From Tepidicaulis marinus (GTDB lineage Bacteria > Pseudomonadota > Alphaproteobacteria > Parvibaculales > Parvibaculaceae), in contig NZ_BBIO01000005.1 of the NCBI RefSeq assembly GCF_000739695.1, forward strand, positions 124,001-188,000: a DNA stretch of 64,000 nt. Reading direction: 5' to 3'. Under the pieces are notes generated by a model, which was not told the DNA's origin, did not search any database, and was given only the letters and a program-made list of their open reading frames with translations. The first letter of the stretch is position 1, and each line of letters begins with the position of its first letter. Made by a program: the position numbers and the translations under genes. This document shows, in pieces, positions 38,136 through 43,993 of this stretch.

Positions 38136-38930
38136 CTAAACCGCAACCGGGGCGGCGATATGCGGGTGGGGGTCGTAGCCCACCAGTTCGAAATCATCAT
38201 AGGTGAAGTCGAAAATACTCTTCACATCGGGATTGATCTTCATTTGCGGCAAGGGGCGCGGGTTGCGCTGAAGTTGCTTGTCCGCTTGTTCCAGATGATT
38301 GAGATAAAGATGCGCGTCGCCGAATGTGTGGATGAACTCGCCGGGCTGAAGCCCCGTCACCTGCGCGATCATCATGGTGAGCAGCGCGTAAGACGCGATG
38401 TTGAAAGGCACGCCGAGGAAAATATCCGCCGAGCGCTGATAGAGCTGGCAGGAAAGTTTGCCGTCCGCCACATAGAACTGGAAGAGGCAGTGGCAGGGCG
38501 GCAGCGCCATGTGATCGACATCGGCCACGTTCCAGGCCGAAACGATGAGCCGGCGCGAATCCGGATTTTTTTCGATCTGCTGAATGAGGTTCTTGATCTG
38601 GTCGATCTTCGTGCCGCCCGGCGCGGGCCAGCTGCGCCATTGATGGCCGTAAACAGGGCCGAGATCGCCGTTCTCATCCGCCCATTCATCCCAGATGCGC
38701 ACGCCGTTCGCTTTCAGATAGGCGATGTTCGTGTCGCCCGCCAGAAACCAGAGCAGCTCATGGATGATGGATTTCAGATGCAGCTTCTTCGTCGTCACCA
38801 GCGGAAAGCCCTCCGAAAGATCGAAGCGCATCTGGTGGCCGAAGACGGAGCGCGTGCCGGTGCCGGTCCTATCGGACTTTTCCACCCCTTTGTCGCGCAC
38901 CAGCCGCATCAGATCGAGATATTGCTGCAT
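38136..38930 (-). CDS. thyA: Thymidylate synthase
   Basis: ThyA methylates dUMP to dTMP. The ATG at 38930 gives 264 residues beginning [15 protein letters not shown], the same length as E. coli ThyA; a longer open frame to 39125 is antisense to the dipeptidase gene and is discarded. Dihydrofolate and dUMP segments include [20 protein letters not shown], the catalytic cysteine in [12 protein letters not shown], and [20 protein letters not shown]. Confidence 0.96.
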
Positions 38931-39060
38931 CGGGCCCTTCCTGATTCTTTCGCCCGCCAGTCTAGCGCCCCTGCCCCGCTTGAGCCAGAATGGCGGCCAG
39001 CAGAGGGGCGCAAGAAATGCCCCGCCCGGCAAAAAGCTGGGGAAAAATGGGGAGCAGAAA

Positions 39061-40227
39061 GTGAAAAAAGCAGTTTTGATCGGGCTCGGCCTTGTGGTGG
39101 CGGCCGCCGTCGCCGCCCTTGCCATCGTGCCGGGCTATCTGGAAAGCACCACGAATGTGGTCGAGGAGCACGCCCCTTACGAGATCGGGGAGGCCTCCTC
39201 CGCGCTGCATGAAAGCCTTGTCATCGCCGATCTGCACTCCGACACGCTGCTCTGGGCCCGCGATCCCTTGTCGAGGGCCGATCGCGGCCATGTGGATGTG
39301 CCCCGCCTCGTGGACGGCAATGTGGCGCTGCAGGTCTTCTCCGTCGTCACCAAAGTGCCCCAGGGCCTGAACTATGACGAGAACACCGCCGATAGCGACC
39401 AGATCACCCTGCTTGCCATGGTGCAGCACTGGCCGGCCCGCACTTGGCGCAGTCTCTTGGAGCGCGCGCTTTATCAGGCCGAAAAACTGCAAGCCGCCGA
39501 AGCCGAAGCGCCCGAAGCCCTGAAAGTCGTGCGCACGAAAGCGGATTTGGAAGCGGTGTTGAGCGCGCGCGCCGAAGGCAAGGAGATTGTCGCCGGGCTG
39601 CTGGCGACCGAGGGCCTTCATCCGCTGGAAGGCGACGCCGCCAACGTAAAAGTGCTTTACGACGCCGGCTACCGGATGATGGGCTTGCATCATTTCTTCG
39701 ACAATAAACTGGGCGGCTCGCTGCACGGGCTTTCGGGCGCGGGACTGACCGATTTCGGCAAGGAGGTCGTGCGCGAGCTGGAAGCGCAAGGCGTCATGAT
39801 CGATGTCGCCCATTCCTCGCCCGCCGTGGTGGAGGATGTGCTGGCGATGACGGATAGCCCGATCTTCGTGTCCCATACCGGCGTCAAAGGCGCCTGCAAC
39901 ACCGCGCGCAACCTCGAAGACGATTTGATGAAGCGCATCGCCGAACGCGGCGGCGTCATCGGCATCGGCTATTGGGACGGCGCGGTCTGCAAGATCGATC
40001 CGGCGAATGTCGTCAAATCCCTGCGCTATGCCGCCGACCTTCTGGGCGCCGATCATGTCGGCCTCGGCTCAGACTATGATGGCGGCACGACGGTTCTTTT
40101 CGACACATCGGAACTTGCCGTCCTGACGGAGGAAATGCGCAAGGCCGGTTTCACGGATGAAGAAATCCGCAAGATCATGGGCGGCAATGTCATCCGCGTC
40201 TTCAAGGAGCAATTGCCCGCGGGCTAG
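39061..40227 (+). CDS. Membrane-anchored dipeptidase (peptidase family M19)
   Basis: The chosen start is GTG at 39061, six bases after GGGGAG, giving 388 residues; the frame is open far upstream but only as a shadow of thyA. An N-terminal helix ([20 protein letters not shown]) acts as a signal or anchor. The zinc-binding HSD of renal-type dipeptidases is seen in [12 protein letters not shown], with further ligands in [10 protein letters not shown] (bridging Glu), [12 protein letters not shown] and [13 protein letters not shown]. The C-terminus has [10 protein letters not shown] and [10 protein letters not shown]. It probably cleaves dipeptides outside the cytoplasm. Confidence 0.9.
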
Positions 40228-40236
40228 GCCTGCCCC

Positions 40237-40911
40237 TCAAGCTGCAAGCGTGCGGAAACGGAAATGGCCCGTCTCGGGGAAAAGCCCGAGCCAGTCGCCA
40301 TATTCCGTGCCGCGCCCCATATTGTGAATGACGCGCCGGCGCCCGGTAAGCGGTGAGGTTTTCGCGCTCACCACCACGATATGCGGGCGGCCGAAAACGT
40401 TTTGCGTCACAAGATCGCCGGGCCTGTAACTCCCGTCTTTCACCTCCGCTCCTTGGCGGGCGAAAAACGCGGCAAGGTTCGGCACGCGCCGGTGGTCGAT
40501 ATTGGGGTCGGGTTTTTTAAGCCCCCAGTGAGGCGGATAGTCGGCAAATGCGGCGCGCATATCTTCATGCACCAGCTCCTGCAAATCGAGGCCGAGCCCG
40601 GCCCTGTAAGCGCGGATCACCACGTCTGTGCACACGCCCCGCTCCAGCGGCACATCGCCGCCCGGATAATCGAGCCTCACATAGGAAGGATCGTAGCGCC
40701 GGGTGAGGCCGATCTGCGCCTCCGCCGCGATGATGAGCTGGCGCGCTGGCTCAGGCAGGTCCTCACCCAAGACCGTGTCGAGGGCCGCGCCACGCGCCTC
40801 CCCCGCCTCGGACGAGCCGGCGCAGCCGGGCATGGAAAAAAGCGCGCCGCCCGTCAAAGCGCCGCTGAAAAGAGTGCCGAAGCCGCTAAGAACCTTCCTG
40901 CGCGTTATCAT
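40237..40911 (-). CDS. DUF1287 (NlpC/P60-like fold) exported protein
   Basis: The 224-residue protein starts with ITRRKVLSGFGTLFSGALTG, a twin-arginine-like export signal ending near a lone cysteine (MPGC, a poor lipobox). The mature part has the DUF1287 core: ERGVCTDVVIRAYRAGLGLD with a candidate catalytic Cys, LVHEDM, NIDHRRVPNL with His, and DLVTQNVFGRPHIVVVS. An upstream frame to 41001 has no ribosome site; AGGGCGG precedes the ATG at 40911. Function unknown, possibly a cell-wall or peptide hydrolase. Confidence 0.82.
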   Translation of the reverse strand: MITRRKVLSGFGTLFSGALTGGALFSMPGCAGSSEAGEARGAALDTVLGEDLPEPARQLIIAAEAQIGLTRRYDPSYVRLDYPGGDVPLERGVCTDVVIRAYRAGLGLDLQELVHEDMRAAFADYPPHWGLKKPDPNIDHRRVPNLAAFFARQGAEVKDGSYRPGDLVTQNVFGRPHIVVVSAKTSPLTGRRRVIHNMGRGTEYGDWLGLFPETGHFRFRTLAA

Positions 40912-41124
40912 CGCACCGCCCTTTATTCTTAAAGTCAGTGCCCCGCGCCCGAGCGCATTCAAACGGCGGGAAATGGCGGCAATGGGGAGCAAAAAGGGCA
41001 AGAATGTGCCGGGCGCAGGCTTGTTGCAGAAAGCACAAGACTTCTCTCAGTCAGGCGCCCTTCACCCTTTATTTGCCGCTCATGATGCTTATATTACGTC
41101 TGTCGGCATTGCCGACTATGGCGA
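40912..41124. other. Intergenic region upstream of ssrA
   Basis: This interval lies between the DUF1287 start and the tmRNA acceptor piece. It should hold divergent promoters. Apart from the hairpin at 41102-41116 and a possible -10 at 41090-41095, I see no gene or strong motif. Confidence 0.4.
41102..41116 (+). other. Hairpin at the 5' side of the tmRNA gene
   Basis: GTCGGC-ATT-GCCGAC can fold directly upstream of the acceptor piece. TATATT at 41090-41095 could be a -10 element, but no good -35 is seen. It may be the leader of the tmRNA precursor. Confidence 0.4.
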
Positions 41125-41440
41125 TAAACGGACTACGTAATAAGCCTATCGGACCCGGGGGCAGTACCCGGCGCCTCCACCAATATCCCCGCGCTTGAAA
41201 CAGTTTTGCGGGCTTCAGGGGGGCGAAACAGGATCGACGAGGGTGTAAAGGTAGTTTTTTCGCTCGGCATGGTAGCCACCGTTATCGGGCCAAACTTGAT
41301 AGTTGCCAACGACAACTATGCTGAAGCACGTCTCGCTGCCTAAGCAGTGCGACAGCTTCGAATTAAGCCCTAGCCGTTAGCACGGTTAGGCGGGGTTCGA
41401 GGGCACCTGGCAACAGAAGCCCTCACTTATCCTCTGCTCT
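41125..41440 (+). ncRNA. ssrA: Transfer-messenger RNA, circularly permuted two-piece form
   Basis: The acceptor piece comes first: T stem 41055+100 region at 41155-41159 with 41167-41171, acceptor strand CGCCTCC at 41172-41178, then ACCA ending at 41182. A spacer (41183-41218) with a CCCGC/GCGGG hairpin separates it from the coding piece, which starts GGGGGCG at 41219. The two strands pair over seven bases with a G-U at the third pair, the alanine identity mark. GTAGTT (41251-41256) can pair with GACTAC (41131-41136) as helix 2. The tag frame from GCC at 41305 reads ANDNYAEARLAA and stops at 41341-41343. Hairpins at 41369-41390 and 41399-41424 follow. Outer ends are approximate. tmRNA frees stalled ribosomes and marks products for ClpXP. 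Confidence 0.95.
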
Positions 41441-41641
41441 TACCGCAGCGCCTCAGCAGGACAAATGGCTGGAGGGTGTCCGGTCTGCCCATTTCGGCGG
41501 CACCTGATGTGGCGCGGCAGCAACGCCGCTTTGACACCGCCGCCCGGATGCACTAGCTCACTTGCCAGCCCGCCGGGCGCAAGGCAGGCTTGCAAAGCGG
41601 CAAATTTGGCAGATTCGGCAAAAGGTTGAGGTTGAACACCC
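41441..41641. other. Intergenic region between ssrA and sspB
   Basis: About 200 bases with no supportable gene. It should hold the 3' processing end of the tmRNA coding piece and the sspB promoter; I see no clear -35/-10 pair or strong terminator. A poor AGGTTGAGG lies before the sspB ATG. Confidence 0.4.
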
Positions 41642-42148
41642 ATGGCTGACACTCCCTCCCAAGATCTCATGCGCTACGATTTGATGGCGCAGGAAGCGCT
41701 GAAAGGCGTGGTGCGCAAGTCGCTGGAGATTGCGGGCAAGGAAGGGCTGCCGGGCGAGCACCATTTCTACATCTCTTTCCGCACCAATGCGTCGGGCGTG
41801 CAAATTTCCGACCGGCTGAAAGAGCAATATCCCGAAGAAATCACCATCGTGCTCCAACATCAGTTCTGGGACCTCGAGGTTTCCGAAAAAGGCTTCTCCG
41901 TGCACCTCTCCTTCAACAAGGTGCCGGAACGGCTGGTCGTGCCTTTCTCCGCGCTTCTGGGCTTTTTCGACCCTTCCGTCCAATTCGGCCTGCAATTTGC
42001 CCAAAACGAAGAGGCAGTAGCGGCCGCGCCCGGCGAAGAGACGGTGCCCGCCGATGAGCCGCCCGCCGGGGAAGAAGGCGAGCCGGCCAAAAGCGGCGAA
42101 GCAGGCGGCGACGTGGTCAGTCTCGACGCTTTCCGCAAGAACAAATAA
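41642..42148 (+). CDS. sspB: SspB, ClpXP adaptor for ssrA-tagged proteins (alpha type)
   Basis: The 168-residue protein has the SspB tag-binding domain in its first 115 residues ([60 protein letters not shown]), an acidic Pro/Glu/Gly linker, and the C-terminal [11 protein letters not shown] that docks on ClpX in alphaproteobacterial SspB. It captures tmRNA-tagged polypeptides and delivers them to ClpXP. It lies directly downstream of the tmRNA gene that makes those tags. Confidence 0.95.
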
Positions 42149-42164
42149 TGCGCCCTCCTGTCCC

Positions 42165-42196
42165 GCCGCGCCCTTGCCGGCAGGGCACCGCGCGGC
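42165..42196 (+). terminator. Weak terminator candidate after sspB
   Basis: GCCGCGC (42165-42171) pairs with GCGCGGC (42190-42196), with an inner CCCT/AGGG. CTTCGCTTGG follows, so the T-tract is poor. Confidence 0.4.
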
Positions 42197-42299
42197 CTTC
42201 GCTTGGCGCTCCCGCTCCTGCGTGCTAAATCAGCCCCCAAAATCGCCCTTCCGCCTGGTGCGGGCGGGCCATGACGCTGTTTTTCAGGGAGACCGACGC

Positions 42300-43691
42300 A
42301 TGAGCAAGACCCGCACCGAGACCGATTCCTTCGGCCCGCTGGAAGTACCCGCCGACAAATATTGGGGCGCGCAGACCCAGCGCTCCCTCGGCAATTTCAA
42401 GATCGGCGGCGAAACCATGCCGAAGCCGCTCGTGCGGGCGCTGGGCATCATCAAGCGCTCGGCCGCGCTCGCCAATATCGCGCTCGACAATATCGATCCG
42501 AAAATCGGCCAGACCATCGCCGAGGCCGCGCTGGAAGTGGCCGAGGGTAAGCTCGACGATCATTTCCCCCTCGTCGTCTGGCAGACGGGTTCGGGCACCC
42601 AGTCCAACATGAACGCCAACGAAGTCGTCTCCAACCGGGCGATCGAAATGCTGGGCGGCACGATGGGCTCAAAAGACCCGGTTCATCCGAACGATCATTG
42701 CAACCGCTCGCAATCCTCGAACGATACCTTCCCCACCGCCATGCATATCGCAGCGGCCGAGGAAATCACGCACCGTCTGGTGCCTGCGCTGCAGCAGCTG
42801 CGCAATTCGCTGAACGACAAAGCTGAAGCCTTTAAAGACATCATCAAGATCGGCCGCACCCACACGCAAGATGCCACGCCGCTGACGCTCGGCCAGGAAT
42901 TTTCCGGCTATGTGGCGCAGGTCGAAAACGGCATCCGCCGCGTGGAAACCGTTCTGCCCGCGCTTCTGGAACTCGCCCAAGGCGGCACGGCGGTCGGCAC
43001 CGGCATCAATGCCAAAATCGGTTTTGCGGAAAAATTCGCCGAGGAAGTGGCGAACTTCACGAAACTGCCTTTCATCACCGCGCCCAATAAGTTCGAGGCG
43101 CTGGCAACGCACGATGCCTGTGTGGAAGCACATGGCGCGCTCAACACCGTTGCCGTTTCGCTCTTCAAGATCGCCAACGATATCCGGTTCCTCGGCTCCG
43201 GCCCGCGCTCGGGCCTTGGCGAATTGCAGCTGCCTGAAAACGAGCCGGGCTCCTCCATCATGCCGGGCAAAGTGAACCCGACCCAGTGCGAAGCGCTCAC
43301 CATGGTCTGCGCGCAAGTGATGGGCAACCAGACGACGGTAACGTTCTCCGGCAGCCAGGGCCATTTCGAGCTTAATGTCTTCAAGCCCGTCATCGCCTAT
43401 AACATCCTGCAATCGATCCGCCTTCTGGCCGATGCGAGCGTCAGCTTCGCGGAGAACTGCGTGGACGGGATCGAGGCGAACCGCGAGCGCATTGCCGATC
43501 TCATGGAACGCTCTTTGATGCTGGTCACCGCGCTCGCACCGAAAATCGGTTATGACAACGCCACGAAAATCGCCAAAACCGCGCATAAGAACGGCACGAC
43601 GCTGCGCGAGGAAGCGGTGAAAGGCGGCTATGTCACGGAAGAAGAGTTTGACCAGACGGTGCGCCCGCAGGATATGATCGCTCCTCAGTAA
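42300..43691 (+). CDS. fumC: Class II fumarate hydratase
   Basis: FumC interconverts fumarate and L-malate in the TCA cycle without an iron-sulfur cluster. The 463-residue protein begins [29 protein letters not shown]; the catalytic-loop signature [13 protein letters not shown] and the [14 protein letters not shown] and [19 protein letters not shown] blocks are intact. The frame is open upstream into sspB, but GGGAG lies before the ATG at 42300. Length is normal. Confidence 0.97.
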
Positions 43692-43729
43692 ATTCGGGGC
43701 CCTCAATATCGGGGCAAAGGGGAGCAGGC

Positions 43730-43993
43730 TTGGGCAAAATCGTCAAACGCTCGGTCAGCATTGCAGGCCACCGCACCAGCATTTCCCTTGAGCGGCCCTT
43801 TTGGGAAGGCCTGAAGGAACTGGCCTGCTCCCGCAAGGTTTCGGTCAACGAACTGATCCGCCAGATAGACGCGGGGCGCGAGGAAGAGGAAAACCTCTCA
43901 AGCGCGCTCCGCGTTTTCGTTTTCAAGGAAATGGTTCCGGCAAGAGCCTGCGCGGCAACAAAAGATGCGCCCGAAGACGGCGAACCTAGCTGA
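43730..43993 (+). CDS. Ribbon-helix-helix protein (RHH_4 type)
   Basis: This 87-residue protein starts at TTG (43730), six bases after GGGGAG; there is no in-frame ATG near. The segment KRSVSIAGHRTSISLERPFWEGLKEL followed by KVSVNELIRQID matches the RHH_4 family, where the first strand and two helices form a dimeric DNA-binding fold. Members of this family often lie next to fumC in alphaproteobacteria. Target unknown. The C-terminus is acidic and not conserved. Confidence 0.82.
   Translation: MGKIVKRSVSIAGHRTSISLERPFWEGLKELACSRKVSVNELIRQIDAGREEEENLSSALRVFVFKEMVPARACAATKDAPEDGEPS

Follow-up and report, generated by a model that had tools for sequence, protein, structure and literature searches.

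The window analysed here is a stretch of 64,000 nucleotides from Tepidicaulis marinus. An earlier note on it, made from the letters alone, read a transfer-messenger RNA gene with its two halves in reversed order. The question raised by this locus is whether it is a genuine ssrA gene, of which form, and where its ends lie.

Identity of the locus

The genome has one ssrA (tmRNA) gene, which is this locus, and it has the circularly permuted two-piece form usual in Alphaproteobacteria. The covariance-model search that the earlier note had proposed was run against Rfam, and the alphaproteobacterial model RF01849 (alpha_tmRNA) matches at 41064–41427 with 310.2 bits (family cut-off 50 bits, E-value = 1.3e-89) over its full length, model positions 1–355 of 355. 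The merged model RF04321 (tmRNA_permuted) also matches, at 41120–41343 (147.7 bits, E-value = 3.3e-29), and ARAGORN independently calls a permuted tmRNA at 41087–41434 with the tag ANDNYAEARLAA. All three agree with the earlier reading that the acceptor half precedes the coding half. The further remark that such a gene is easily missed is not borne out by two standard tools, Rfam and ARAGORN, both of which find it. The limits first given for the gene, 41125–41440, place it roughly correctly, however the start is about 23 nt late and the end lies 13 nt beyond the Rfam end at 41427. The start at 41125 is too late because the covarying 5′ hairpin of the acceptor RNA would be lost.

RF01849 has only one match in the whole genome (3.48 Mb assembly, 99.98% complete). 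A one-piece tmRNA was ruled out, as no match to RF00023 exceeds the cut-off genome-wide; there are nine weak matches 76–108 nt in length, the best of which (76 nt) scores 43.7 bits against 47, and these are taken for putative tRNAs. The beta- and cyanobacterial models RF01850 and RF01851 are not among the three Rfam matches listed for the window, a listing that gives just the top match of each clan. A decayed, non-functional ssrA copy with the real gene elsewhere is very improbable, since this is the sole RF01849 match in a nearly complete assembly, its score is high, and the tag, stop codon, acceptor stem and CCA are all intact.

The features expected of an RF01849 member in sequence and gene content are present: permuted order with a short spacer, a seven base pair stem with G3-U70, a tag, a covarying structure and SmpB. 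A standard alphaproteobacterial permuted ssrA is the best explanation of the locus, with a probability of about 0.99. It is an ordinary member of a known family and leaves the knowledge of tmRNA unchanged. What is gained is confirmation that it was read correctly from the raw sequence, and gene boundaries that are now set.

Of 190 genomes sampled evenly across the class, 176 have RF01849 (174 of them above the cut-off) and 14 gave no match; when completeness of at least 90% and contamination of no more than 5% are required, the figure is 146 of 153. Among relatives it is present in 39 of 41, although some of these also belong to the 190. For comparison 55 loci were aligned, consisting of the locus itself and the best-scoring others from the 190-genome and relatives sets; this sample is biased to good matches and many of its members come from the same family as T. 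marinus.

Organization of the gene

The features of the locus are collected in Table 1.

Table 1. Features of the ssrA locus and the adjacent sspB gene (positions in the window)
Feature	Position	Strand	Detail	Basis
Putative promoter	41067–41095	+	-35-like CTTTAT 41067–41072, 17-nt spacer, -10-like TATATT 41090–41095	comparison of 55 loci
Acceptor RNA (3′ tRNA-like half, transcribed first)	41102–41182	+	about 81 nt, ends in CCA; 5′ end inferred	Rfam alignment
5′ hairpin of acceptor RNA	41102–41116	+	GTCGG/CCGAC	comparison of 55 loci
T arm	41155–41171	+	stem CCGGG/CCCGG (41155–41159/41167–41171), loop 41160–41166	direct reading
Acceptor-stem 3′ strand and end	41172–41182	+	CGCCTCC 41172–41178, discriminator A41179, encoded CCA 41180–41182	
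Spacer	41183–41218	+	36 nt, can fold as hairpin; between CCA and coding 5′ end; not part of the mature RNA in relatives	
Coding RNA (5′ tRNA-like half, tag frame, 3′ pseudoknot)	41219–41427	+	209 nt	Rfam
Tag reading frame	41305–41343	+	ANDNYAEARLAA and stop TAA	ARAGORN
3′ pseudoknot and hairpin	41390–41424	+	GC.GGGT 41390–41396 with ACCT.GC 41405–41411; hairpin 41399–41404/41419–41424	
sspB, ClpXP adaptor for tmRNA-tagged proteins (function by family)	41642–42148	+		PF04386, E-value = 8e-47

A direct reading of 40800–41800 bears out every sequence element named in the earlier note, among them the CCA that comes before GGGGGCG. GGGGGCG (41219–41225) and the acceptor-stem 3′ strand form seven pairs, of which the third is G41221-U41176; the alanine mark that had been recognised here, G3-U70, is present in all 55 loci. 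The strands of the acceptor RNA that pair with the coding RNA lie within 41120–41151. The length of the acceptor RNA, 81 nt in this genome, ranges from 77 to 89 nt across the 55 loci. ACCA is encoded in 53 of them. In the other two (L009 and L010) the CCA is incompletely encoded, as ACCT and ACCC, and therefore the tail would need enzymatic completion.

The tag codons can also be read directly (GCC AAC GAC AAC TAT GCT GAA GCA CGT CTC GCT GCC TAA), and give the tag of the earlier note and of ARAGORN. The frame begins with an alanine resume codon and has an Ala-Ala end followed by the stop. The identical tag occurs in 20 of the 55 loci, own locus counted. Two loci, L049 and L052, have tags of 22 and 25 residues when read by rule, AKNNMASVAANDNAPVAFAIAA and AKDSINDNTPALVAANGNYLAARAA, about twice the normal length; these look like internal duplications of the normal tag.

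The T loop, GGCAGTA, does lack TTC as had been noted, however it is not unusual. GGCGGTA is found in 28 loci, GGCAGTA in 25 and GGCAGTG in two, so that the pattern GGC[A/G]GT[A/G] holds in 55 of 55, and the RF01849 consensus gives the same reading without TTC. As judged from this comparison the TTC-less loop is a clade trait and no anomaly, because the 55 loci and the Rfam consensus agree and departures have been in print since 2005. The available part of that 2005 paper describes a change of U342 to G in Caulobacter and two guanines in the Reclinomonas mitochondrion (PMC1168896). The loop here begins with GG, whereas for Caulobacter one changed base is named in that part and for the Reclinomonas mitochondrion two guanines.

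Enzymes that process tRNA cut at CCA ends and at tRNA-like 5′ ends. That the permuted gene yields a single uncut RNA is about as improbable as a decayed copy: the spacer is bounded by CCA on one side and by a tRNA-like 5′ end on the other, both of them cutting sites of the tRNA enzymes, and two-piece products are published, in the texts available, for Caulobacter, Sinorhizobium meliloti and Orientia.

Covariation of the structure

Placed on the 55-locus alignment, the Rfam structure has standard pairs in 95.4% of cells, and both sides vary in 23 of its 35 pairs. It has a covariation score of 0.369; shuffles give 0.151, and slid versions no more than 0.078. The 5′ hairpin of the acceptor RNA is paired in 97.8% of cells and four of its five pairs vary on both sides. 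Two places speak against it: the weakest helix, 41130–41136/41251–41257, has 85.5% of cells paired, and the pair 41147–41241 is non-standard in 27 of the 55 loci. The acceptor and T stems give little evidence either way because most of their pairs never vary (five of seven and three of five are invariant, respectively); matched changes in the acceptor stem are seen in four of 55 loci.

The 3′ hairpin and pseudoknot are left unpaired in the RF01849 model. In the 55 loci 98.2% of their cells are paired and eight of 12 pairs vary on both sides; the covariation score was reached by none of 500 shuffles and the count of both-side changes by one of 500. A hand-anchored check of the 3′ ends, from which L048 was left out (it lies at a contig end), finds pairing in 318 of 324 cells for the hairpin and in 309 of 312 for the pseudoknot; in this check of the 55 loci the pseudoknot pattern is missing in L027 and L052.

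A chance tRNA-like and ORF-like pattern mistaken for a tmRNA, which a 12-codon tag taken alone would be weak evidence against, is extremely improbable in view of the E-value of 1.3e-89 over the whole model, the agreement of a second program and the covariation across 55 loci.

A probable promoter and the start of the RF01849 model

The first 39 positions of RF01849, which correspond to 41064–41101 in this locus, are unpaired and carry a CTT..TATATT pattern. A box matching TATATT in at least five of six positions, picked after inspection of the loci, is found in 51 of the 55 loci and in 70 of 1100 upstream-flank windows. With the addition of CTT 16–18 nt upstream of such a box, the figures are 42 of 55 loci and one of 1100 windows. 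At the locus itself the pattern sits directly upstream of an acceptor RNA of published length. A scan of 40900–41700 on either strand found no sigma70-type promoter of E. coli-type consensus, and a consensus scan of the same region, also on either strand, found no terminator.

The unpaired start of RF01849 is probably promoter DNA rather than transcribed RNA. It is read in this way because the boxes recur in the loci and adjoin an acceptor RNA of published length. This matters for the mapping of 5′ ends in these genes.

The spacer

Spacer lengths in the 55 loci range from 9 to 61 nt and the sequences are variable. Three loci with spacers shorter than 15 nt were left out of the folding analysis. 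The remaining 52 spacers fold better than their dinucleotide shuffles, with a mean z of -1.66; z is below -1 in 36 and above 0 in six. Flank controls of equal length show a mean z of 0.03 downstream (n = 51) and -0.06 upstream (n = 155), against -1.71 for the 52 spacers in that comparison. When 24 of the 55 loci are dropped as near relatives, so that roughly one per family is kept, 28 spacers average a z of -1.42. The T. marinus spacer is only mildly stable (z = -1.35). From these folding statistics the spacer hairpin likely aids folding of the acceptor stem for processing.

By a rough rule, two of the 55 spacers (L002 and L003) combine a stable hairpin and a T-rich tail. A terminator-like role of the spacer is not proposed because only these two fit and the T. 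marinus spacer does not.

Neighbourhood of the gene

By Pfam, the gene order in 38136–43993 of the window is thymidylate synthase, M19 dipeptidase, DUF1287 protein, ssrA, sspB, fumC and a ribbon-helix-helix protein. sspB begins 214 nt past the end of the coding RNA. In the fetched flanks of the 55 loci (1500 nt, except for L048, L052 and L054), sspB is found downstream in 40, thyA in 22, fumC in 19, M19 in 17 and DUF1287 in eight; the M19 count was made after removal of a query overlap with thyA on the other strand.

Of the 190 genomes examined, 130 are among the 150 matches listed for RF01849 and also among the 150 listed for SspB. In 99 of these 130 an SspB match lies on the same strand at most 1500 nt downstream of ssrA, and in 107 at most 3500 nt downstream; of the remaining genomes, 12 carry the two genes on separate contigs, and in 11 the distance is larger or the orientation is not the same. 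The median gap between ssrA and sspB in the 40 loci is 112.5 nt, and it is at most 150 nt in 23; these gaps are approximate because start codons were picked by rule. A terminator-like site lies between the two genes in three of the 40.

That the two genes recur side by side gives a lead on co-expression that can be tested. A tentative and rather doubtful proposal, drawn from the order of the genes, the short gaps and the folding statistics, is a joint one: in many Alphaproteobacteria ssrA and sspB may form one transcription unit, in which 3′ maturation of the tmRNA would also generate the 5′ end of sspB mRNA and so tie production of the tag to the supply of its adaptor, and the spacer hairpin may at the same time be a selected processing element.

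The part of PMC2245857 available describes both tmRNA-flanking genes as conserved among the alphaproteobacteria compared there, and its main text has no occurrence of "sspB"; PMC4131195, in the part available, treats the neighbours of smpB. No statement of ssrA-sspB linkage was found in the literature searched, subscription papers being mostly outside it and the sources available in part. Other papers may already describe the linkage, and no priority is claimed.

The rescue system

The partners of a tmRNA are encoded in the genome. There is one SmpB match over the cut-off (PF01668, E-value = 5.5e-59), the sspB gene of Table 1 gives the only PF04386 match, and ClpX has one match over the cut-off with four weaker ClpX-model matches below it. 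Among the 80 SspB loci listed, the nearest from a named relative is that of Rhodobiaceae bacterium UBA4490 (86%), followed by others at 60%–67%, largely Parvibaculum. The sequence, its covarying structure, the single copy and the presence of the partner genes are matters of observation.

Promoter use, cleavage, charging, tagging and degradation are pictured here by analogy with relatives and from established tmRNA knowledge. One precursor would be transcribed from the putative promoter near 41067–41095, and tRNA-processing enzymes would excise the 36-nt spacer between the CCA and the coding piece. The acceptor RNA and the coding RNA would then be held together by pairing in the acceptor stem and in the helices under it. 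Charged with alanine and bound to SmpB, the complex would enter stalled ribosomes and add the tag A+ANDNYAEARLAA, and the tagged protein would be recognised by SspB and ClpXP for degradation.

Comparison with known tmRNAs

The original paper on the two-piece tmRNA of Caulobacter is that of Keiler et al. in 2000. The one-piece tmRNA of RF00023 has the same functional parts and mechanism but is not permuted. The beta- and cyanobacterial forms (RF01850 and RF01851) are permuted and two-piece like the alpha form, and their models are clade-specific; in the part of PMC3978253 available the two-piece design of these groups is described as independently evolved.

Closer parallels are found within the class, as far as the available parts of the sources describe them. 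In Orientia, Northern blots show a 372-nt precursor together with products of about 80 and 240 nt, and RNA-seq coverage matches them (PMC7335160). The S. meliloti ssrA gives Northern sizes of 82 and 204 nt, and smpB is unlinked (PMC2245857); the T. marinus gene is likewise two-piece, with predicted sizes of about 81 and 209 nt, and the differences are ones of sequence detail. Caulobacter tmRNA consists of two chains of 83 and 213 residues with small pseudoknots (PMC1168896). The T. marinus gene resembles it, in what that text covers, in permuted order, two predicted chains, alanine resume codon, pseudoknots and the G-U pair of the acceptor stem, and differs from it in sequence detail only, i.e. 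the tag ANDNYAEARLAA, the 36-nt spacer and a T loop that starts with GG.
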